A model generated the notes under the pieces. The model did not search any database. It saw nothing but the letters and a program-made list of their open reading frames with translations, and was not told the origin of the DNA. The translations under genes and the position numbers were made by a program. A stretch of 64,000 nucleotides of DNA from Gemmatimonas sp. (lineage in GTDB: Bacteria; Gemmatimonadota; Gemmatimonadetes; Gemmatimonadales; Gemmatimonadaceae): positions 1-64,000 of the forward strand of contig JANYJW010000056.1 in assembly GCA_025361705.1 (NCBI GenBank), read 5' to 3'. Shown one piece after another: positions 1 through 11,456 of this stretch (positions within the stretch are counted from its first letter, which is position 1; every line of letters begins with the position of its first letter).

Positions 1-83
1 CCATTGGCGCCGTCCTCCTGCCGATCACCTCGGCGGGAGGGCGGCGTCTCTCATTTCCACGCTCGATGGCGGAGGATTTCACC

Positions 84-977
84 ATGTACGCGCCCTGCAA
101 TAAGGAGCCCGGCTCTGACAGTCGACCCACGGCCGACGTCGTCACCGTCGTGGACTCCACCCTTCAGGACCGGCTGACCCTCGCCCTTGGCGAGGTCGCC
201 CGGCCGGTGCACTTGGCCTCGGTATCGGCAGCCCTGTCGGTCGTTCGTGAACGGCCCGTCCGGGCAGTCCTCCTGGGCCAGGACTCCATGACCACCCGTT
301 CCGCGCCCGAGGTCGGCAAGCTCGCCGTGACCTGTGGCGGCACTCTGATCGCGGTGGTGGGCGGCTGGACTCCGAGCCTCTCGGACACCCTGCTCGCGTT
401 CGGCCGCTACGGCGTCCGCGACGCGGTCGACGTGTCCAGCCGAGACGGCCTGTCCCGGTTGAGGGACCTCATCACCCGCGCCGAGTGGGAGCTGGCGAAC
501 CGCGTCGCGCGGGCGCTGGAACCCAGCATGCAGGAGGCGTCCGAAGAGATGCGGTTCTTCATGAACTACCTCGTCCGGACGGCCCCGTTCGTCGGCTCCG
601 CCACCGTCTTCGCCGCTGGGCTCCGGGTGAGGCAGAGCTCGCTCAACTCCCGGTTCTTTCGGGCAGGGCTTCCGTCGCCCAAGAAGTATCTGGCCTACAT
701 CCGGTTGTTGTTCGCCGCCGCGCTGCTTGAGCAGCCGATCGTCTCGGCGGCTCAGGCTGCGCGCCGTCTGAACTACTCGTCACCCCAGAGCTTCATGCGT
801 CACGTACGAGATCAACTTGGCGTGTCGGTGAGCGAGTTCCGGCAAGAGTACACGTTCGAAGCGCTGGCCCATCACGTCGTCTTTCACACCCTTTCAAAAC
901 ACGGAGCAACGATCAGATGGTTCAGGCCGCTCGGCACGGTCATCCCCGAGGGGGAAGATCGCGCCGGAGTCGGATGA
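84..977 (+). CDS. AraC-type HTH regulator with receiver-like N-terminal domain
   Basis: A regulator of about 297 residues. The C-terminal quarter has the paired helix-turn-helix layout of AraC/XylS proteins, seen around AAQAARRLNYSSPQSFMRHV followed by the second helix region ending GVSVSEFR. The N-terminal 120 residues alternate hydrophobic strands and helices like a receiver domain but lack the acidic pair and a clear phospho-acceptor aspartate, so it is probably a pseudo-receiver. The ATG at 84 is preferred over the ATG at 66 because GGAGG lies eight bases before it. A second protein of the same architecture lies at 20589-21404. The gene ends in a strong terminator at 1010-1040, so it is a separate unit from the ATPase genes downstream. 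The target genes are unknown. Confidence 0.75.
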   Translation: MYAPCNKEPGSDSRPTADVVTVVDSTLQDRLTLALGEVARPVHLASVSAALSVVRERPVRAVLLGQDSMTTRSAPEVGKLAVTCGGTLIAVVGGWTPSLSDTLLAFGRYGVRDAVDVSSRDGLSRLRDLITRAEWELANRVARALEPSMQEASEEMRFFMNYLVRTAPFVGSATVFAAGLRVRQSSLNSRFFRAGLPSPKKYLAYIRLLFAAALLEQPIVSAAQAARRLNYSSPQSFMRHVRDQLGVSVSEFRQEYTFEALAHHVVFHTLSKHGATIRWFRPLGTVIPEGEDRAGVG

Positions 978-1110: not shown

Positions 1111-2310
1111 ATGGGAATGAATGAACGCCTTGATCACAATCCCGTCACGCTATTGGCGCGCACGAACACCACCCGCAACGTGCGGGTGTTCGGCATTCGT
1201 CAAGTCGACCGCCGCAGTCACATGGCGATCCTCGGAAAAACCGGCACCGGCAAGTCCGCGCTCTTGCAGTCGATTGTCCTTCAGGACATCGCGGCTGGGA
1301 CGGGAGGTGCACTGTTCGATCCGCACGGCGATCTCGTGCGAGCCGTGGCAGCTCGTATACCGCTGAACCAGCGTGCGGCGATCGTCTTCCTCGACGCGAC
1401 TGACCCAACACTTCAACTCCGATTCAACCCATTCGCCAACGTCCCGGAGGGCCAGCGCGCATTGGCGGCGGCCGGGCTCGTCGAGGTCTTCAAGAAGATC
1501 TGGTCCGACGACTGGGGGCCTCGATTGGAGCACTTGCTCCGAAATGTGGTCTTCACTCTCCTCGAACGACCCGATTCGACGCTCGCCGACGTTCCGCGAC
1601 TCATCGCCGACCGCACGTTCCGTTCGCAGGTGGTCGAGTCCATTGGCGACGCAATCGTTCGGGATTTCTGGACCAACGAGTTCGAGAAGTACTCGCCAGG
1701 CTTCCGGTCCGTCGTCGTGGCACCGCTGCAGAACAAGATCGGCGCCCTCCTCACCGACCCGACGCTCCGGCGCATCCTCGTCGAACCCGGCGAGGCCCTC
1801 GACCTGCGCCGCCTCATGGACGAAGGGAAGATCCTCCTCGTGAACGTGGATAAAGGGCTGATCGGCGAAGGGCCGGCGGCCACGCTCGGCTCGTTCCTAC
1901 TCTCGCACCTGGCACTGGCCGCGATCTCCCGAAGCAACGTCCCCGAGAGCGAACGCCGGGACTTTTCCATCGTTCTCGACGAGTTCCAAACCTTCACCAC
2001 GCTCTCGGTTGCGACCATGCTCGCGGAGCTTCGAAAGTTCCGGGTCGGCATGGTCCTGGCCAACCAACACCTGTCGCAAGTAGACCCCGCCATTCGGGAC
2101 GCGGTTTTCGGGAACGCCGGTACCCTCATCGCGTTTCGCGTCGGCGCCGCAGATGGAGCCTTCTTGGCGCGCGAGTTCGCGCCCACGTTCGCTGCGGAGG
2201 ACTTCATCTCGTTGCCTCTCTATCACATCTACATCCGCCTCCTCATCGACGGCGAGCCCTCACGCCCTTTTTCGGCCACCACGCTTCCGCCCCTATCGCC
2301 GCGCGGCTAA
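1111..2310 (+). CDS. T4CP/HerA-like P-loop ATPase (type IV secretion DNA-binding domain type)
   Basis: An ATPase of about 399 residues. The Walker A motif GKTGTGKS is at residues 42-49 and the Walker B motif IVLDEF has its acidic pair at D290-E291. A DPHGDL block follows the first core strand, and LANQHLSQ lies in the sensor region. These are features of the VirD4/TraG coupling-protein and HerA branch of the FtsK-HerA superfamily, which pumps or translocates DNA. There is no N-terminal membrane anchor, so it is cytoplasmic and may rely on the membrane protein encoded next. It is a paralogue of the central ATPase region of the 1029-residue protein at 3013-6102. The start at 1111 is one of several in-frame ATGs (also 1069 and 1117). 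No relaxase, VirB4 or pilus gene is visible nearby, so a conjugation role cannot be claimed. Confidence 0.8.
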   Translation: MGMNERLDHNPVTLLARTNTTRNVRVFGIRQVDRRSHMAILGKTGTGKSALLQSIVLQDIAAGTGGALFDPHGDLVRAVAARIPLNQRAAIVFLDATDPTLQLRFNPFANVPEGQRALAAAGLVEVFKKIWSDDWGPRLEHLLRNVVFTLLERPDSTLADVPRLIADRTFRSQVVESIGDAIVRDFWTNEFEKYSPGFRSVVVAPLQNKIGALLTDPTLRRILVEPGEALDLRRLMDEGKILLVNVDKGLIGEGPAATLGSFLLSHLALAAISRSNVPESERRDFSIVLDEFQTFTTLSVATMLAELRKFRVGMVLANQHLSQVDPAIRDAVFGNAGTLIAFRVGAADGAFLAREFAPTFAAEDFISLPLYHIYIRLLIDGEPSRPFSATTLPPLSPRG

Positions 2311-2354: not shown

Positions 2355-3011
2355 GTGGCGCAGTCGGCAGAGGTCATTTCGCACTGGCATCAATCCGTCG
2401 ACGGACTCAGCACCTCGACGCTCGATTTCTACGCAGCCGTTGAAAAGGCGATTCAGGCGAAGGAAGTCGCGGACATTCGTATTGAACGGATCGAGGTGCC
2501 GGAGCACGGGCTGCTCTCCGCGAAGCGAGTGTACCTCGGTGTGAGCTATGGCCGGTTGCGGTTCGACATCTGCGGCGCCCCGTTCGGCAAAGACTTCTTC
2601 TTTTCATGGTGGCTCGTGAAGCGGACGCCCGGCTTCGCCGCGCTGTGGGGATGCGCCACGCTCATCGGGCTACCGATCATCGCGCTCGGGTTCATCAGCG
2701 TGATGGGCTTCTTCAAGGGCATCATCTTTGCACTGCTGGCCGTCGTGATCGGTTTCGCCATTCTGCGGAGCAGCGCCTCCGATGGATGGAACGCGATCGA
2801 GGATGTGATCCTCGCCATGCCGGTCACGGGTGTCTTGTACGCGAAGTTCGTCAAGCCGGTGACGTACTTCTCAGAGGACACGCGCCTCATGTTCGAGGAG
2901 ACCGTGCACCGGATAGTCCTGCAGGTGGTGGGCGGAATCCTCACGCTCAACAAGCTGCCCGAGATTCCGGCCGAAAAGTTGAAGCCACAGTCCAAGAAGG
3001 CGCTCGCGTAG
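2355..3011 (+). CDS. Membrane protein between two T4CP/HerA-like ATPases
   Basis: A protein of about 218 residues with a soluble N-terminal part of some 90 residues, two adjacent transmembrane helices (about 94-116 and 120-138) and a C-terminal soluble part of about 80 residues. I do not recognise the family. GTG 2355 is chosen because GGAGG lies just before it; a TTG at 2340 is also in frame. It starts 44 bases after the small ATPase and ends one base before the large ATPase gene, so the three genes look co-transcribed. The placement suggests it anchors one or both ATPases at the membrane, which is inference only. Confidence 0.7.
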   Translation: MAQSAEVISHWHQSVDGLSTSTLDFYAAVEKAIQAKEVADIRIERIEVPEHGLLSAKRVYLGVSYGRLRFDICGAPFGKDFFFSWWLVKRTPGFAALWGCATLIGLPIIALGFISVMGFFKGIIFALLAVVIGFAILRSSASDGWNAIEDVILAMPVTGVLYAKFVKPVTYFSEDTRLMFEETVHRIVLQVVGGILTLNKLPEIPAEKLKPQSKKALA

Positions 3012-3012
3012 C

Positions 3013-6000
3013 ATGCATCCGCACGACCTCCAGCGCCTCTTCGACGACTGGGAGTCGCAGACGCGGGGCGTCCGCCCGTCGCCGGGTCGTGTGGCGGTGG
3101 ATCCAGCGTTTACGCCGCTCTTCGCGAGCAAGCGTGTGCGTACGGCGGTGCTCGATGACGGGCGCCGGCCCGGCCTTTTCGAGCGCGTGAAGGAGGCTGC
3201 GCGCGCGCCGACGTCGGCTGTGGAGGCGCCAGAGGAACCAGACACCGCGCGGCACGATTTTCTTGGCGACCTTGTTGAGTTCGAACTGCTCCTGCCGCGC
3301 GATTTCGTCGTCAAGGCCGGTGCGGCGAGAAACTGGCTTGCGTCACTCCACAGCCTCGCCGAACCGCTCAGCATGGAGATCATTGGGTCGCCCGAGCGGG
3401 TGACCGTGGTGATCTGCTGCGGCGCTGCGGACCGTATCTCGGTCGTTGGGGCGACGCGTGCCCATTTCCCCGAAGCCAAGCTCCGTCAAGGAACGGATGT
3501 ACTGCGCAGAGCGTGGACGCGCGACGAAGGCCACGCCATCATCGTCGGGATGGGCCTGCAGGAGCGTGTTTTCCGGCAACTCCGCTCCGATGACCGGCTC
3601 GACGCCGATCCGTTGATCGGCATCGTCGGGGTGCTCGATCAGTTGTCCGCTGGGGAGTTGGGCGTCGTCCAGGTGATTCTCGCTTCGGCCAGTCCGAAGT
3701 GGAAGAAGGAGTTCGAGGACTTCGCGGCGAGCATCGACGACGTGGACAAGGTGATGTCGCTGATCCGCACCAAGTTCGCCGAACCCACCTATGCGGCTGT
3801 GCTCCGGATCGCCGCCATTGCGGCTGATGAAGACGAAGCCGTGGATCTCGCGCAGCGGCTGGCGTACGCGGTAGCCGGTGCCACCCGATCCGAGTCGAAC
3901 GAACTTGCCCCCGCGGACTTGGGCGATCACGGCTTCGACGCGGAGATGGAAGACCTCTTGGATCGCGCCACGCACCGCAGCGGCATGCTGCTGTCGCTGT
4001 CTGAGGTGCTGACGCTGGTGCATCCGCCGTCCGCGTCCGTTCGGTCGGAGCGATTGCTGCGGCAGGGCTCGCGCAGCAAGGCCGCACCCGCGTCAGCGGT
4101 CGGCAAGGCGCTGCTTATCGGCACGAACGAACACGATGGCGAGACACGCAACGTCTCGCTTTCTGTGGAGGAGCGCCTAAGGCACACCTATGTCATCGGT
4201 GCCAGCGGTACCGGCAAGAGCACGCTGCTCTTGTCGATGATCGCGCAGGACATCGCCGCTGGCAACGGCTTCGCAGTGCTCGACCCGCACGGCGACCTGA
4301 TCCACGACGTGCTCGCTCGCATACCGGCGGAACGTGCCGGGGACGTCATCGTGTTCGATCCGGCCGACGAAGCCTTCCCGGTTGGGTTCAACATCCTGTC
4401 GGCCCACTCGGAACTCGAACGCACGCTGCTCTCGTCCGACCTTGCGGCGGTCTTCAAGCGTCTCTCCACGACGTTCGGCGACCAGATGGCGACCGTGCTC
4501 GGGAACGCGATTCTCGCATTCCTCGAAAGCACGGAAGGCGGGACACTCATCGACTTGCGGCGCTTCCTGATCGACAAGAGCTTCCGTGCCCGCTTCCTCG
4601 AAACCGTGCAGGACGAGCAGGTGGTGTCGTACTGGCAGGAAGAGTTCGCCCTCTTGAAGGGACTGCCCCACGCGCCGCTCCTGACCCGTCTCAACACCTT
4701 CCTTCGTCCGAAGCTCATTCGGCACATGGTCGCCCAGAAGGAAAGCCTCGACATGCGCGCCATCATGGATGGCCGGAAGGTCCTGCTCGCCAAGCTCTCG
4801 CAAGGCGGCATCGGTGAAGAGAACTCACATCTGCTCGGCTCGCTCGTCGTCGCGAAGATCGCGCAGGCCGCGATGAGCCGGCAGGACGAGGCGGCCGCGG
4901 GGCGCGTGCCGTTCTTTTTGTACATTGACGAGTTCCATCATTTCATCACACCGTCCATCGCCGCCATCCTCTCCGGCGCTCGCAAGTACGGGCTCGGCCT
5001 GACGCTCGCGCATCAGGAGATGCGCCAGCTCAAGAGCCGGAGCGAGGAGGTGGCCGGAGCCGTACTCGGCAACGCGTACACCCGTCTCGTGTTTCGTGTC
5101 GGCGACCAGGACGCACGGACGCTCGCGGACGGATTCTCATTCTTCGAGGCGAAGGATCTTCAGAACCTTGGCCTCGGTGAAGCGATAGCCCGCATCGAAC
5201 GCCCGGACTTCGATTTCAACCTTCGGACTGCTCCACTCCCGTCCGTGCCTGAGCAGACGGCACATGCGCGCAGCGCCGCAGTGATTGACGCTTCGCGCGC
5301 TCGCTACGCGAAGCCGAGAGCCGAGGTCGAAGCAATACTGCGTGCGAGCATCTCAGAGGAGCAGCAGGAGGACGAGGGCAGGGCCGCAGCACCGAAGCGA
5401 CGTCGTGCAGCGAAGGCGGAGGCTCCGGCCCAGTCGCAGCCTGCGCTGGCGCCGGCCGTCGAACGACTTCCGGGCCGAGGTGGTCCGCAGCACAAGTACT
5501 TGCAGCAGCTCGTTCGAAAGCTGGCTGAGGATCGGGGATACACCGTGTCGGTCGAGCGTCCCGTGCTGGACGGACACGGCCACATCGACGTTCATTTGCA
5601 GCGCGGCGACGTGTCGATCGGGTGCGAGATCTCGGTGAGCACCGGCGCCGAGCACGAGACACAGAACCTCTCAAAGTGTTTGTCGGCCGGGTTCGGCTAT
5701 GCGGTCCTCATCAGTCCCGAGGAGGAGACGCTCGTCGAGGCGCGAGCGCTCTTCGGACACTACGATAAGCGGGTCCGTTTCGTCTCGCCGGACGGGTTCA
5801 TCGCATTCCTTGAGGAGTTCGAGGCATCCGCCGGGCGAGACGAGGCCAAGAAGCCAAAACGGCCGCAGGCGCGACCCGAGGGGCAGGACGATGCTCCAGC
5901 GGGCAAGCGCATGCTGATCGCCGAGGATGCGGCGGAGTACCTCGGTCTCGCGACGCAGACGCTCGCCAAGATGCGGTGGAGTGGTGATTCGCCGCCGTTC

Positions 6001-6102
6001 TTCAAGGTGGGGCGGAGGGTGCTGTACGAGCGGGATGAGCTGGATGCGTGGTTGGCGGAGAGGAAGAGAAAGTCAACATCCGACCCAGGTGATCGCGCCT
6101 GA
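3013..6102 (+). CDS. T4CP/HerA-like ATPase fused to a nuclease-like domain and an excisionase-type HTH
   Basis: A protein of 1029 residues. Residues 1 to about 370 form a mixed alpha/beta region like the N-terminal part of long type IV secretion conjugative-transfer proteins. The ATPase core follows, with Walker A GASGTGKS at 396-403, DPHGDL after it, and Walker B YIDEF with D639-E640. After a charged Ala/Arg/Pro linker (about 780-820) comes a domain of about 110 residues. It holds D859 and the E872-I-S874 motif, arranged like a PD-(D/E)XK nuclease in which the usual lysine is serine. Residues 967-1023 are a typical HTH_17/excisionase module (AAEYLG, KVGRR, ELDAWL). It begins one base after the membrane-protein stop. 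The fusion of translocase, nuclease-like and DNA-binding modules could act in DNA transfer, element excision or defence; the sequence does not decide. Confidence 0.8.
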   Translation: MHPHDLQRLFDDWESQTRGVRPSPGRVAVDPAFTPLFASKRVRTAVLDDGRRPGLFERVKEAARAPTSAVEAPEEPDTARHDFLGDLVEFELLLPRDFVVKAGAARNWLASLHSLAEPLSMEIIGSPERVTVVICCGAADRISVVGATRAHFPEAKLRQGTDVLRRAWTRDEGHAIIVGMGLQERVFRQLRSDDRLDADPLIGIVGVLDQLSAGELGVVQVILASASPKWKKEFEDFAASIDDVDKVMSLIRTKFAEPTYAAVLRIAAIAADEDEAVDLAQRLAYAVAGATRSESNELAPADLGDHGFDAEMEDLLDRATHRSGMLLSLSEVLTLVHPPSASVRSERLLRQGSRSKAAPASAVGKALLIGTNEHDGETRNVSLSVEERLRHTYVIGASGTGKSTLLLSMIAQDIAAGNGFAVLDPHGDLIHDVLARIPAERAGDVIVFDPADEAFPVGFNILSAHSELERTLLSSDLAAVFKRLSTTFGDQMATVLGNAILAFLESTEGGTLIDLRRFLIDKSFRARFLETVQDEQVVSYWQEEFALLKGLPHAPLLTRLNTFLRPKLIRHMVAQKESLDMRAIMDGRKVLLAKLSQGGIGEENSHLLGSLVVAKIAQAAMSRQDEAAAGRVPFFLYIDEFHHFITPSIAAILSGARKYGLGLTLAHQEMRQLKSRSEEVAGAVLGNAYTRLVFRVGDQDARTLADGFSFFEAKDLQNLGLGEAIARIERPDFDFNLRTAPLPSVPEQTAHARSAAVIDASRARYAKPRAEVEAILRASISEEQQEDEGRAAAPKRRRAAKAEAPAQSQPALAPAVERLPGRGGPQHKYLQQLVRKLAEDRGYTVSVERPVLDGHGHIDVHLQRGDVSIGCEISVSTGAEHETQNLSKCLSAGFGYAVLISPEEETLVEARALFGHYDKRVRFVSPDGFIAFLEEFEASAGRDEAKKPKRPQARPEGQDDAPAGKRMLIAEDAAEYLGLATQTLAKMRWSGDSPPFFKVGRRVLYERDELDAWLAERKRKSTSDPGDRA

Positions 6103-6647: not shown

Positions 6648-7304
6648 TCATTGAGCCAGCAGAGCGAACTGGCTGCAAGGCTGACTAGAAATGGTGGAGA
6701 AGCGCCACAGTACCGTGTCCACCGCACCGACAGGATGGCCGACGACGTCTGAGATGCATTCACAGAGCGATTGCGCACTAGCGAAGCCCATACTCGCCGC
6801 GAGCCGCGCCAAGTGACGATCCTCCTTGGCCATCGATACGCCTAGATTCTTCAGCAAGTGCGCAGTTGTCACTCTGCCAATGTAAGGCAGTTTGGCGACC
6901 ACGGTCTGCGGTGAGCCGGCGGATAACACCGAGTCGAGTCCGTGTTGCGCGAGCACTCGGGCAACATCAACGATCGCGCGCACCTTCCCAGCATGACCAA
7001 ATACCCGCAGGGCTGATTGTTCGCAGAAATTAGCAGTGTCAACGATGCGCTGCGCAGATTGCCATTCGAAGAAGCAGGAAGAGAAAGCGTCGAAGAGTTT
7101 GCTCACCACGGACTCGCGGAAACCGCTATTCAGCACCACCCACGCGTACTCCCTCAGAAAGCGCGGTTCCGTAATGCGCCCCGGTCGCGCGAAGAAAAAG
7201 GTGTCTATCTCCGCCGCGAACCCCTCATTCTCAATCGTAGATAGAGCTTTGAGGTATGCTCGCGCCAATCCCTCTGAGGTGTATTGCCCCTCCACGCGTC
7301 TCAC
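6648..7304 (-). CDS. cap11: HhH/OGG-like DNA glycosylase-fold protein, Cap11-like
   Basis: A helical protein of about 218 residues. The C-terminal part holds a helix-hairpin-helix with LPYIGRVTTAHLL (about 139-151) followed by KEDRHLARL with D162. This matches the HhH-GPD glycosylase fold (OGG1, EndoIII), where that aspartate is catalytic. The lysine that OGG1-type bifunctional enzymes carry in the hairpin (GVGTK) is valine here, so any activity would be monofunctional. A GTG at 7304 overlaps the stop of the SLATT-like gene as GTGA; GTG 7295 has a better-spaced GGAGA. OGG-like genes are a defining accessory of type IV CBASS. The identification rests on motif plus context; the substrate is unknown. 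Confidence 0.7.
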   Translation of the reverse strand: MRRVEGQYTSEGLARAYLKALSTIENEGFAAEIDTFFFARPGRITEPRFLREYAWVVLNSGFRESVVSKLFDAFSSCFFEWQSAQRIVDTANFCEQSALRVFGHAGKVRAIVDVARVLAQHGLDSVLSAGSPQTVVAKLPYIGRVTTAHLLKNLGVSMAKEDRHLARLAASMGFASAQSLCECISDVVGHPVGAVDTVLWRFSTISSQPCSQFALLAQ

Positions 7305-7894
7305 TCTCCGATTTCCGCGTGCCTGACAGCTCCTGGCGTATGCCGCCACGCGAGAGCCAAGCGCAACAAAGTGCGATTCGCAAACGGATATCTATCAAGA
7401 ACTCTACTCAACAGCACCTTCTGCAGGTGCGACGCCTTGAGTTCCAGGAATAAGCCTTCGGGAATTGCAGCGAGGCCTTGTGCTCGGAGAGTCGCAGCGT
7501 CGAGGGCCCGGCTCAGCTCCTCTACACCAGCCGCAGAGTTTCGCCGAAGCATGCCCAGTTGAGCTTTTGTCTCGGCGAGGACCGCCGTTGCGTTCCCGTG
7601 TACCGCTCCGGCTTCTTTCCATCCAATACGAAGCTGCAAGATCGCAAGCACGAACACACCGACGGATACCCAGCCAGCTACTACCCCGGCCGCAGCCTTC
7701 GAAATGCCTAACGAGTCCGAAAGTGCCTGGGGCGCGAACACGAGCGCACAAAGCATGGCGGACAGCGTGAGGATCAGGAGATCGAGCACCAGCGCGCGTC
7801 GTGCATAGCGGTCACGCAGCATCGAATGCGCACTCATCATCTGATCCGTAACCCGGTGCCGTTTGCCGACCTCATCGTGCAGCAACGTGGTCAT
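7301..7894 (-). CDS. Two-helix SLATT-like membrane effector of the CBASS-like operon
   Basis: A protein of 197 residues with two transmembrane helices (about 35-54 and 67-88). A long helical cytoplasmic part begins with WKEAGAVHGNA, the pattern seen in SLATT domains (SMODS and SLOG-associating two-TM effectors). In nucleotide-signalling defence systems these proteins are thought to form or disrupt membrane pores after binding a cyclic nucleotide. Its ATG overlaps the stop of the CD-NTase gene by four bases (ATGA), which implies translational coupling. The family call is by eye from topology and the post-TM motif. A generic two-TM effector is the alternative. Confidence 0.7.
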   Translation of the reverse strand: MTTLLHDEVGKRHRVTDQMMSAHSMLRDRYARRALVLDLLILTLSAMLCALVFAPQALSDSLGISKAAAGVVAGWVSVGVFVLAILQLRIGWKEAGAVHGNATAVLAETKAQLGMLRRNSAAGVEELSRALDAATLRAQGLAAIPEGLFLELKASHLQKVLLSRVLDRYPFANRTLLRLALAWRHTPGAVRHAEIGE

Positions 7895-8817
7895 GGTTCG
7901 TCACCAAAGATCTCTTTCCACGCACCAAGTTGCTTCGACATCGATGCCACCTTCAAGCGGCGCGCGGTGCGCCTGAACGCATCAGCAACAACCTGCCGCT
8001 GAAGGCTGTTGGCAGATCCGAGGTACGAATCGACGTGCACAGACTGTCCTGTCGAATCCACGATAGGGCTCATGACACGTTCCGAGCCAGTAGAGAAGAA
8101 GTGAATGAGCATGTCTCGTGGTGTCAATCGCTCGGAGTAATGCTTGAAGACGTCGACAGCAAGCGCCTCCGCATGATAGCCCGTCAGTTGATGCTGTGCG
8201 GGGAACTCAGCCATCAGCGCCTTGGCAAGCTTCACGACGGGGACGACCTTGTTGCCGTGCGCGGCGTTCACTTTCGATAGCTCCGACGCGAATCCGCGCG
8301 GGTCGATTTCCGACCACGCAGATCCGCTGGCGTCGGAGATGAGAGCTCGGTCACCCCTACGAAGAGCGGGAAGCAGCTGCACCTCCGCATCCGCAAACTT
8401 CAGCGTGATCGCGAGGTTCCCTACGCTCACTTCGGTAGTAGCAAATCGGTCGCGCAGCAGCTGAGCAAGTTGCTGCTTTACCGTGTCTGGTGATTCGTTT
8501 GCCAACTCTGTTCCATCGACGAAGACCAATGCGTCAACGTCACTGATGCCGTCGACGTAGGTGTGCTTCGCGATCGAGCCGCCGAACAGTAGGTCAACTT
8601 CGCTATCGTGCGCGGCTTCAATTGTGGCACGAATCTGATCGAGGTGCTTTCGAATTGCCTCGACGTCTCGGTCATTGAAGTCCGTTAGAAGTTCTCCGAG
8701 GTACGAGTTGACCTCAGCATCGAATCCCGCGTCAGCGAGTTCGACTTCGGCCGTGCCGAGGAGCCTCTTGACCTGTTCGACGTCGGAACTGAAGTAGGAT
8801 CCGCCACTTCCGCCCAT
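7891..8817 (-). CDS. cGAS/DncV-like nucleotidyltransferase (CD-NTase), CBASS signal synthase
   Basis: An enzyme of 308 residues predicted to make a cyclic oligonucleotide on phage infection. The nucleotidyltransferase core shows GGSIAKHTYVDGISDVD (79-95), the GG/S plus DxD motif with D93 and D95. The third acidic residue is likely E145 in AEVQLLPA. The second domain has GYHAEALAVDVF, and the C-terminus ends with a WKEIFG block, both typical of bacterial CD-NTases. GGGAGGT lies six bases before the ATG. The upstream TGT-like gene stops two bases away and the effector overlaps downstream. The N-terminus MGGSGGSYF would expose glycine after methionine removal, which matters for the modification reported in type IV CBASS. 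The cyclic product cannot be predicted from the sequence. Confidence 0.88.
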   Translation of the reverse strand: MGGSGGSYFSSDVEQVKRLLGTAEVELADAGFDAEVNSYLGELLTDFNDRDVEAIRKHLDQIRATIEAAHDSEVDLLFGGSIAKHTYVDGISDVDALVFVDGTELANESPDTVKQQLAQLLRDRFATTEVSVGNLAITLKFADAEVQLLPALRRGDRALISDASGSAWSEIDPRGFASELSKVNAAHGNKVVPVVKLAKALMAEFPAQHQLTGYHAEALAVDVFKHYSERLTPRDMLIHFFSTGSERVMSPIVDSTGQSVHVDSYLGSANSLQRQVVADAFRRTARRLKVASMSKQLGAWKEIFGDEP

Positions 8818-8819
8818 TG

Positions 8820-9818
8820 TCAGACCTCCCGTAGCCGGATGTCGAGCACCTCTGCGGAGTCGCGAAACAGGCTGCTATATGGACCCAGCTTGGAATAGTC
8901 ACCGCCGACGGCGAATCGAGCCAATCGACTTGCGAGGTCTCGGAGATACTCGATGTTCGCTTGTAGGACTCTCACTCTGATGAAATCGTCCCGACGGTCA
9001 ATTCCGACTCGCAACGCGCCGGCATTGAATCGGTACATCGCGACCGACTCGGAGAAGCCGTAGCGCATCCAGCTGAGGCCATCGAAAACCTCGGCCCCGG
9101 CGATGAAGAGGAGGGGTACGGTGATGGGATCGAGGCATCCGAACACGTGAATCGGGGCCTCGACACCGGCGGCATCAAGCGCACGGCGGATTCGCGCGAG
9201 GTTCACCATGCGGTCCAGTGTTGAACCTCCGAGCTCCTTTTCCGTGAGCCCCACCAAGTCAAAGGGCTTCAGCTTCGAGGCAGCTGATTCGACGTTCTCC
9301 ACCTGAACGTATTTCTGGTTTGCCGTTTCGGGCTTAATCAGAATCGCAAGCTGCTGCGCTGGACAAAGTGCCCGCAATTGCAACCCTTCGTCGATTTGCT
9401 CGTCTAGCGAGACCCGTCTAGTAGGCGAGTCGAAAGTGACTACGATGGCGCTCACGTGCGCCGGCCATGACGCGACAACGGCCTTGTGGAGGTCCGCAGA
9501 CCACTCGCCCTTTTGAGGCGGCTCAAATGAGACCGCAGATAGATCCTCGTACGACGAGACCTCGTAGCCGCCGGAGTCCAAGATGGTCACTGTCGTCAAC
9601 TGCGACGAAGGTGCCGGCAGAAACCCGTGATGAACGTCGAACGCGCTTATGAGCTGCGAATCGTACAGGTACTCCGTCGCGACCTCATAGAGTTCAGCAA
9701 CCTCTGAGTGTCCGTCTTTCCTCAGTGCAAACCCTTTGCTTGAGAACGACGGCACGAGAAGCGGCGTCCGGTAACGCTCGCCCGAGGGATGCGTTATCAC
9801 CCGCGAACGTGGCATCAT
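8820..9818 (-). CDS. cap10: TGT-like (queuine tRNA-ribosyltransferase family) enzyme, Cap10-like
   Basis: A TIM-barrel protein of about 333 residues related to tRNA-guanine transglycosylase. ILDSGGYEV places D81 where TGT has its base-recognition DSGGFQ motif, TFDSPTRR (D130) matches the second substrate aspartate, and EVFDGLSW places D246 at the nucleophile position. The C-terminal zinc site of canonical TGT (three Cys and one His) is missing, and the protein is shorter than the usual 370 or more residues. The ATG at 9818 overlaps the QueC-like stop by four bases and has AAGGTGG upstream; an in-frame opening extends further upstream but runs over the QueC-like gene. In type IV CBASS a TGT-like gene sits beside QueC-like and CD-NTase genes, as here. 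A tRNA-modifying role is less likely given the operon. Confidence 0.8.
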   Translation of the reverse strand: MMPRSRVITHPSGERYRTPLLVPSFSSKGFALRKDGHSEVAELYEVATEYLYDSQLISAFDVHHGFLPAPSSQLTTVTILDSGGYEVSSYEDLSAVSFEPPQKGEWSADLHKAVVASWPAHVSAIVVTFDSPTRRVSLDEQIDEGLQLRALCPAQQLAILIKPETANQKYVQVENVESAASKLKPFDLVGLTEKELGGSTLDRMVNLARIRRALDAAGVEAPIHVFGCLDPITVPLLFIAGAEVFDGLSWMRYGFSESVAMYRFNAGALRVGIDRRDDFIRVRVLQANIEYLRDLASRLARFAVGGDYSKLGPYSSLFRDSAEVLDIRLREV

Positions 9819-10414
9819 TTCTGTTCCCACCTTCTTCGATCCTTGCAGGAGGGACATTTCCCACACGGCGTATCTGCACGCTCGCAGCTGTGCAACAGCG
9901 TCATGTCTATTCCGAGTTCGTCGGCCAGAATGAAGACCTGCGACTTGTTGAATTGCAGGAGGGGACACCAGAGGGCCACGCGTCCGTCTGAGTAGACATC
10001 CAGAACTTCCTGAACGGTCTTCGCGAAGGTCGGACTGCAGTCCGCATATGGGGTGCCAGCGTGGACGCCGATGACGACCAACCGGTTCCGTGGTAGCGCC
10101 CTGTTCGCCGCGCAAGCGAGCAGCATCAAGTTCCTTGCCGCGATGTCCCCGTCGGCGACGATGAAACCGCTAATCCGAACGACAGCTAGTGTCGACTCGA
10201 AATGGCTCGCAACGCGTCGGGCCGACTCCAGTTCCGCCCGGCGCGGGTGTTGTCCGTAGTCGACGAACACAGACTCGACTTTCGCTCCTTCCTTTCGGAG
10301 GAGCGCCAGGCAGACCGCCGAATCTACGCCCCCGCTGAGGAGCAGCACCGCGCGGCGCGAAGGGCTCCGCTTAGGTCGCTCCACCCGAGTCTTGGCCTTC
10401 AAGCCCTTGGTCAC
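9815..10414 (-). CDS. cap9: QueC-like 7-cyano-7-deazaguanine synthase family enzyme, Cap9-like
   Basis: A PP-loop ATP pyrophosphatase of about 199 residues. SGGVDSAV at 27-34 is the PP-loop motif and VDYGQ follows as in QueC. The C-terminus has Cys177, Cys184, Cys187 and Cys190 in a C-x6-C-x2-C-x2-C pattern, the QueC zinc site. QueC converts carboxy-deazaguanine to preQ0. In type IV CBASS the homologue is reported, from memory, to attach a deazaguanine to the CD-NTase N-terminus. It is the first gene of the operon and overlaps the TGT-like gene. No queD, queE or queF lies nearby, so the enzyme must draw on host carboxy-deazaguanine. Start is uncertain: TTG 10450, GTG 10414 or GTG 10384. Confidence 0.85.
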   Translation of the reverse strand: MTKGLKAKTRVERPKRSPSRRAVLLLSGGVDSAVCLALLRKEGAKVESVFVDYGQHPRRAELESARRVASHFESTLAVVRISGFIVADGDIAARNLMLLACAANRALPRNRLVVIGVHAGTPYADCSPTFAKTVQEVLDVYSDGRVALWCPLLQFNKSQVFILADELGIDMTLLHSCERADTPCGKCPSCKDRRRWEQK

Positions 10415-10573
10415 GAAGGCAGAACATACCCCTGGGCTAAGGCGAGGCAAGGCAAGATCCGGCCACCGGCCAAGTCGACCTGCTCCTCTTTGCCCGCGAC
10501 CAACGAAGGTCGCCCGGCTACGGCAATGCTAGCTCGGCAAAGTCAGACGCGTCGCACGCCCGGCCTTCCTACG

Positions 10574-10933
10574 TCAGCCCGTGCCCTGATCGTCCCCGCG
10601 CGCCGCCAGCTCGTTCACGCACGCCTGACGCAGCGGCCCCAGTTCGTCCTCGACGATCTTCGCAATCGTCGAATCGTCCACCGCGTCGTACTCGTGACGG
10701 AGCACGTTGCCCAAACCGCGAATGCCGCGCCACGAGACCTGGGGCTGCCGCTCCTCGATCATCGGGCCGAGCTTCTTCGCGGCTTCGCTGATCCGTTCGA
10801 GGCATCGCTCCACCGCGTCGCGCGTCTTGTCGTCGAGCTCGGCGTCAGGCTTCATGCCCTTCAGGTGGGCGCGCACCCGATCGATGTTGGTGACGATGTC
10901 CTGCAGCCGTTCGTGCGGCACCTCAGAAGGCAT
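10574..10933 (-). CDS. hepT: HepT-like HEPN toxin (DUF86)
   Basis: A helical protein of 119 residues. It has the DUF86/HepT signature near the C-terminus, IRGLGNVLRHEYDAVD, with the histidine and tyrosine of the HEPN RNase motif. The arginine normally before the asparagine is glycine, as in a common DUF86 subgroup. HepT toxins are ribonucleases or tRNA-targeting proteins neutralised when the partner MntA adenylylates the conserved tyrosine. The ATG at 10933 overlaps the mntA stop by 11 bases, so both genes are translated from one message. The pair follows the CBASS-like operon on the same strand. Confidence 0.8.
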   Translation of the reverse strand: MPSEVPHERLQDIVTNIDRVRAHLKGMKPDAELDDKTRDAVERCLERISEAAKKLGPMIEERQPQVSWRGIRGLGNVLRHEYDAVDDSTIAKIVEDELGPLRQACVNELAARGDDQGTG

Positions 10934-11222
10934 ACACCGCCTGCGCCTCAGCGCTCGGGCGCACATGAGCACGGAGGCGGTCGCGCCGGGCGACGTCGAC
11001 GTCCTGCCCCACGATCTGTTCAAGGTCAGCCGCTATGCCGGCGTACGCGAAGAAGTCGTCGGCCACACCGGGTGTGAGGTCGACGAACAGGTCTACATCG
11101 CTGTCGGCTCGCTGCTCCGAACGCACGACCGAACCGAACACCGCGACGTGCACAACGCCGCGTTCACGAAGTTCGACTTCGTGGGCGCGGAGCTTCGCTA
11201 GGATGTTCGTGAGGAGCGACAT
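10923..11222 (-). CDS. mntA: MntA-type antitoxin nucleotidyltransferase
   Basis: A minimal nucleotidyltransferase of 99 residues. VFGSVVRSEQRADSDVDLFV gives the canonical GS-x10-DxD motif. MntA transfers AMP from ATP to HepT, which inactivates the toxin. It is the upstream partner of hepT with an 11-base overlap, the usual order of this toxin-antitoxin type. An ATG at 11222 has TAGG nine bases upstream. The next features upstream on this strand are the terminator and tRNA-Pro. Confidence 0.85.
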   Translation of the reverse strand: MSLLTNILAKLRAHEVELRERGVVHVAVFGSVVRSEQRADSDVDLFVDLTPGVADDFFAYAGIAADLEQIVGQDVDVARRDRLRAHVRPSAEAQAVYAF

Positions 11223-11342: not shown

Positions 11343-11380
11343 GTTCTGTCATAAAATCATGTAAATCAACCACTTCCATC

Positions 11381-11456
<76 letters not shown>

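Follow-up and report, generated by a model that had tools for sequence, protein, structure and literature searches.

The gene for protein A lies in the window, the whole stretch of 64,000 nucleotides analysed here, and belongs together with the genes of a second ATPase (B) and a membrane protein (2TM) to a module that very probably forms the backbone of integrative elements, since it is retained while the cargo is exchanged and is linked to recombinases and repeats of the target site. Within this backbone of regulator, B, 2TM and A, protein A could well be the central motor, translocating DNA for the processing or transfer of the element, a proposal that we regard as evenly balanced. The family of site-specific integrative elements with mostly defence cargo is apparently undescribed so far. 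No paper on such a module was found in the open-licence literature, which is weak evidence of absence.

Domain architecture of protein A

Protein A (1029 aa; 3013..6102, + strand) is encoded by a single open frame and, as the initial annotation had proposed, contains a translocase-type ATPase. The TrwB/HerA-type ATPase domain (aa 366-760; 4108..5292, +) was recognised by Pfam and by its motifs. It matches TrwB_AAD_bind (E 5.9e-12), TraG-D_C (3e-7) and DUF87 (7e-5) over residues ~380-703, with the Walker A sequence GASGTGKST at residues 396-404 and an FFLYIDEF motif beginning at residue 634. In the Pfam scan no family covers either the first 360 residues or residues 780-960. The N-terminal and C-terminal parts of A were modelled with AlphaFold, at moderate confidence because few sequences were usable.

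The N-terminal domain (NTD; aa 84-347; 3262..4053, +) was modelled on residues 1-390 with seven sequences, and residues ~85-340 mostly reached pLDDT values of 65-92. The top 13 Foldseek rows for this model are all R388 TrwK/VirB4. VIA-align superimposed it on 7o42_E with Z 16.9 and 3.1 A over 237 residues, the runners-up being ESX-3 (Z 10.4) and unrelated oxidases (near 7.5). The Pfam VirB4 family CagE_TrbE_VirB is not among the matches of A up to E 1. As judged from the model, A has a VirB4 architecture of NTD and ATPase to which nuclease-like and HTH additions are joined. An ordinary type IV coupling protein (T4CP) was thus rejected as the full answer for A, because the N-terminal fold is of the VirB4 type; the earlier label of T4CP/HerA ATPase holds for the ATPase core and fails for a simple T4CP.

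Residues 801-1029 were modelled with six sequences (mean pLDDT 73, core 80-92). Residues ~822-940 are predicted to adopt an alpha-beta-beta-beta-alpha-beta arrangement, the topology of the PD-(D/E)XK superfamily, and the domain was delimited to aa 819-940 (5467..5832, +) from the AlphaFold model, VIA-align and its invariant residues. VIA-align ranks AF1548 first (Z 10.8), then NucS/EndoMS (10.3 and 10.1) and Can2 and Cdn1 (9-10), with FokI, BamHI and Hjc behind them (Z 7-8). A match to a non-nuclease family, which would have spoken against the nuclease-like assignment, was not seen among the best PDB neighbours, nearly all of which are PD-(D/E)XK proteins. D859 and E872-I-S874 are located where they had been reported, and their nuclease-like arrangement corresponds to this predicted fold: the second strand of the model carries D859 and the third E872. 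Both residues are invariant across the A proteins, as are E882, N885 and K888. No A protein has K at position 874, which is occupied by S, G or A; the canonical lysine of the (D/E)xK motif is missing. K888 is placed by the model on the helix after the third strand and may stand in for this lysine. Nuclease activity of the domain is conceivable on the basis of the predicted fold. Three more distant domains (L087, L088 and one on a Natrinema plasmid) also begin with GRG...H-x-Y, keep the Asp as well as the Glu and are likewise without the ExK lysine; K888 is not kept by all of them.

At the C-terminus, the HTH_17 domain that had been noted before was detected by Pfam at residues 971-1017 (E 2.4e-10; 40.9 bits against a cut-off of 27), within an excisionase-type domain spanning aa 964-1022 (5902..6078, +). 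Among solved structures, that of the excisionase RdfS comes closest (Z 8.4; profile E 5e-9). Within the bacterial family, the most similar HTH_17 sequences belong to stand-alone excisionase-like proteins with 35-54% identity, and the loci of three of these (L017, L019, L026) contain matches to the tyrosine integrase of the G128 island described below. HTH_17 as a constant part of A was rejected: three of the eleven A proteins (L048, G307, G387) end in a different short tail. In the core tree L124, with the HTH, is sister to L048, without it (support 100/99), and the HTH state has therefore changed more than once. The initial view of A as a three-module fusion was accordingly correct as to the modules and incomplete as a whole, since the VirB4-like NTD, 2TM, ATPase B and the probable backbone role of the module had been missed and HTH_17 is not always present.

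Five close relatives of A with 61-94% identity were found in the same bacterial family, one of which (G039) leaves its contig inside the HTH. Five divergent relatives share 41-57% identity and come from the same class as the window (G307, 44%; G387, 41%), from Acidobacteriota (L047, 56%; L048, 46%) and from one IMG/VR contig (L124, 45%). The genome loci carrying A are nearly all from metagenome-assembled genomes. A gene-fusion or assembly artefact was rejected in view of the ten further relatives and the low dN/dS. Between A and its 94% relative this ratio is 0.04 for the ATPase, 0.05 for the nuclease-like domain and 0.05 for the HTH, with looser linkers, and the gene is thus, by sequence comparison, under purifying selection.

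Some more remote ATPases were also noted. An 880-aa protein with 33-34% identity to A (L043, G157:C11) adjoins a region that by inspection resembles a CRISPR array. A relative with 33% identity on an Embleya plasmid is located within an operon of the type IV secretion system (T4SS) type. Upstream of gyrB and gyrA, Saccharibacteria encode A-like ATPases whose N-terminal part is long (L049, L068). A comM link of these Saccharibacteria relatives was dropped, because synteny in the two loci read is with gyrB/gyrA; comM is ~5 kb off.

The gene module and its integration sites

The module begins in the window with a gene for an AraC-type HTH_18 regulator of 303 aa (66..977, +; HTH_18 E 4.9e-11). Such a regulator precedes the module in the closer relatives, and genes of 300-325 aa occupy its place in G128, G173, G039 and G001. 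It is followed by ATPase B, a short VirD4/HerA-like protein of ~400 aa (1117..2310, +; TrwB_AAD_bind E 9.9e-8), whose frame is open from 1069 and whose start in common with its relatives is at 1117. B is 37% identical to A over residues 378-747, and the relatives of B share 43-95% identity. The third gene encodes 2TM (218 aa; 2355..3011, +), with a likely GTG start and a hydrophobic centre (hydropathy peak at residues 92-143), and ends one base before A in the window. 2TM matches no Pfam family, and a PDB sequence search gave only chance-looking matches. In each of the ten loci that show both genes, 2TM immediately precedes A, and in eight of them B is found as well. The gap between B and 2TM often holds inserted genes (G173, G039, G001, G307). 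In G173 and G039 (L035:11845-15704 and L036) the insertion is flanked by repeats with the 3' end of B, of 80 bp (89%) and 42 bp (81%). This arrangement would suit an integration site at the end of B.

The boundaries of the elements could be traced in several genomes. In G128, a sister genome, the module is enclosed by copies of the tRNA-Pro 3' end at a distance of 32.6 kb (C15 114,970 and 147,615), and a tyrosine integrase is encoded ~160 bp from one of them. The island of the window, only one end of which is in the same contig, ends with the 3' half of tRNA-Pro(CGG) (11379..11429, −; gene 11382-11456), copies of which are present on either side of the G128 island as well as on another contig of the window's own assembly (C47). 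The latter copy, perfect over 48 bp (G000:C47:5057-5104), probably marks the far end of this island of the window, which is split between contigs. An empty site for this island was not obtained, as the flanking gene on C47 is absent from the genus relatives. Beside the tRNA-Pro, a pair of genes at 10574-11222 (−) appears by inspection to be HEPN/MNT-like, and contig C47 begins with sequence resembling that MNT region (L110:2-283). The probable other island end (C47 1-5057, L110) encodes a TOTE-type primase-helicase (PF22548, E 1.2e-90).

In a divergent lineage the elements are arranged as B-2TM-A...serine recombinase and interrupt the same codon of comM (yifB) in three genomes of two phyla. 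The serine recombinases of L048, G307 and G387 are related at 57-64% and run into a comM broken after ...L(V/I)AAMNP (L048 ~22759, L089 ~2590, L091 ~16815). In one of the three genomes, G436 (Bryobacteraceae), the C-terminal half of comM at ~61,674 and the N-terminal half at ~104,532 delimit an element of 42.9 kb, with TG common to both junctions at the break. In G387 the recombinase begins ~24 bp after A and a truncated comM 3' end is located ~33 kb away, while in the stretches of G307 that were read the other comM half was not found. In G307 a 617-aa protein with a reverse transcriptase domain (L089:5680-7530, −; PF00078, E 1.1e-8) is encoded between A and the recombinase. A recombinase together with target repeats or a split gene, as expected of a site-specific integrative element, was present in G128 and G436.

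The type of integration site parallels the C-terminus of A. A lacks the HTH in exactly the three copies carried by the comM serine-recombinase elements. Where the flanks of HTH-bearing copies could be read (window, G128, G121, G173, G001, L047, L124), a tRNA gene or the 3' half of one is close by. This correlation is drawn from few lineages, and the islands of G128 and G001 hold other serine recombinases too.

Cargo, associated genes and candidate functions

Relaxase (PF03432) and VirB4 (PF03135) families, the two Pfam models of the genome-wide search for relaxase and T4SS genes, were absent from nine genomes or records carrying A. Furthermore, no relaxase or T4SS family was seen among the called genes of the delimited 42.9-kb element, island genes having been called by a simple script that may miss some. 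The earlier statement that no relaxase or T4SS channel is near A is thus borne out at the sensitivity used, and in the neighbourhoods of its homologues A was not encountered in conjugation operons with relaxase and VirB4. Among defence systems, the best PADLOC match of A is mad8, and the HerA model of PADLOC also matches its ATPase. The resemblance to MADS is limited to A itself, that is to the ATPase (mad8, mad3) and the HTH (MAD1, below the cut-off). Membership in MADS was rejected, as there is no mad1-mad8 set and the neighbours scanned contain no other mad genes.

The cargo of the elements varies and is largely defensive. The window carries, convergent with A, a full type IV CBASS set of OGG, 2TM effector, CD-NTase, TGT (Cap10-like) and QueC (Cap9-like) (6648..10450, −; PADLOC E 2.8e-39 to 1.2e-113). 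In G128 the cargo is an ARMADA-like helicase-helicase-methylase-UvrD cluster with the gene order described in PMC12458937, and in the 42.9-kb element of G436 it is a type I restriction-modification system.

A-B-2TM might itself be a defence or entry-exclusion system, in which a membrane-anchored HerA-type pump would capture incoming DNA for degradation by the PD-(D/E)XK-fold domain. The nuclease fold with its invariant acidic residues, the defence genes beside the module in several islands, the PADLOC matches to mad8 and HerA, the related ATPase next to a CRISPR-like region and the failure to find a relaxase or VirB4 family are all compatible with this. We nevertheless consider it doubtful, because the module behaves as a backbone that is kept while the defence cargo changes and is contiguous with the recombinase in G387, because an excisionase-type HTH is part of most A copies and because the ExK lysine is missing. 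Of the two roles suggested initially, in element mobility or against invading DNA, the former is thus better supported, whereas the link to defence runs through the neighbouring cargo and is at most putative for A itself.

A second gene set, of a RuvC-like protein, an HTH protein, a ~450-aa P-loop-like protein and a serine recombinase, recurs in the islands of G128, G001, G387 and G436 (L093:9339-13634, L094:5483-10127, L145:5519-10544, L146:12684-17291). The ~450-aa protein matches no Pfam family; relatives of it are encoded on three viral contigs (L149-L151). On a plasmid of Sulfitobacter mediterraneus (L131, NZ_CP081110.1 90051-111097) a B homologue with 45% identity lies near a serine recombinase and is followed by transposases; this region also has weak HTH and RuvC-like matches to the second set, and no A was seen in it. 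The IMG/VR contig with an A homologue (L142, G434:C1:1-5600) also has genes for a replication initiator of the RepA type (PF10134, E 2.7e-12) and for a primase-like protein with Toprim, and a similar primase-like gene adjoins B in L048. It could be argued from the RuvC-like and primase-like neighbours, from the excisionase-type HTH_17 and from the lack of a recognised channel or relaxase that A-B-2TM has a purely intracellular role, in partitioning, replicating or excising the element, and none in transfer between cells. This seems improbable to us, as the VirB4-type NTD and the membrane protein point to the envelope and the HTH is absent from three A proteins.

Since the module combines a VirB4-type NTD with a membrane protein and a pair of ATPases, DNA translocation for processing or transfer is its likeliest task, with A as the motor. 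If VirB4-VirB3 and VirD4 are taken as models, the NTD would dock A onto 2TM. The ATPases of A and B would then translocate DNA, and the PD-(D/E)XK-fold domain may bind or cut the DNA that is moved, while HTH_17, where present, could direct A to the DNA of the element. In this way the module would process and move element DNA without a recognisable relaxase. Several observations count against A as a motor: neither an outer channel nor a relaxase was recognised, which leaves the exit of DNA from the cell unexplained, and the 34% ATPase relative by a CRISPR-like region as well as the mad8 match would rather suit a role in defence. In a bolder version, A-B-2TM would be a minimal relaxase-free mobilisation machine, and A would couple excision, processing and transfer by joining in one polypeptide a pump of the VirB4 type, a domain that cuts DNA with a catalytic lysine in a new position, and the excisionase-type DNA-binding domain of the element itself. 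This version appears unlikely to us at present.

For many defence islands, to our knowledge, no way of moving between cells has been described. A conserved VirB4-like motor with nuclease-like and excisionase-like additions, kept through changes of the defence cargo, is a candidate, and the genes of A, B and 2TM should provide a genetic handle on a possible relaxase-free movement of islands. The comM insertions show that a family of defence-carrying elements uses this gene as an integration site in two phyla.

Comparison with known systems

Like VirB4/TrwK of T4SS, A has the same predicted NTD fold followed by a translocase ATPase, with a membrane protein encoded adjacent to it. It differs in lacking a Pfam CagE_TrbE_VirB match and in its additional PD-(D/E)XK-fold and HTH_17 domains, and the elements differ from T4SS in that no relaxase or other T4SS family was found in them. 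With VirD4/TrwB coupling proteins and HerA, A shares the ATPase core (TrwB_AAD_bind, TraG-D_C, DUF87), whereas its NTD is of the VirB4 and not of the T4CP type and it is paired with a second such ATPase, B. The middle domain resembles PD-(D/E)XK nucleases such as AF1548, NucS/EndoMS and Can2/Cdn1 in its predicted fold and in the placing of its conserved Asp (strand 2) and Glu (strand 3), but has Ser, Gly or Ala in place of the ExK lysine and an invariant lysine, K888, on the following helix. The HTH_17 domain is similar in sequence and fold to RdfS/AlpA-type excisionases; these are small separate proteins, whereas in A the domain is fused to an ATPase.

On the level of whole elements, the closest parallel is provided by tRNA-integrated, defence-carrying satellite-like elements with tRNA 3'-end repeats, an integrase and defence cargo such as ARMADA, which encode HUH endonucleases and prophage-like genes (PMC12458937). 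The islands with A share with them the tRNA 3'-end repeats, the integrase and the ARMADA-type cargo, but no HUH protein was found in them and they carry the VirB4-like motor module instead.
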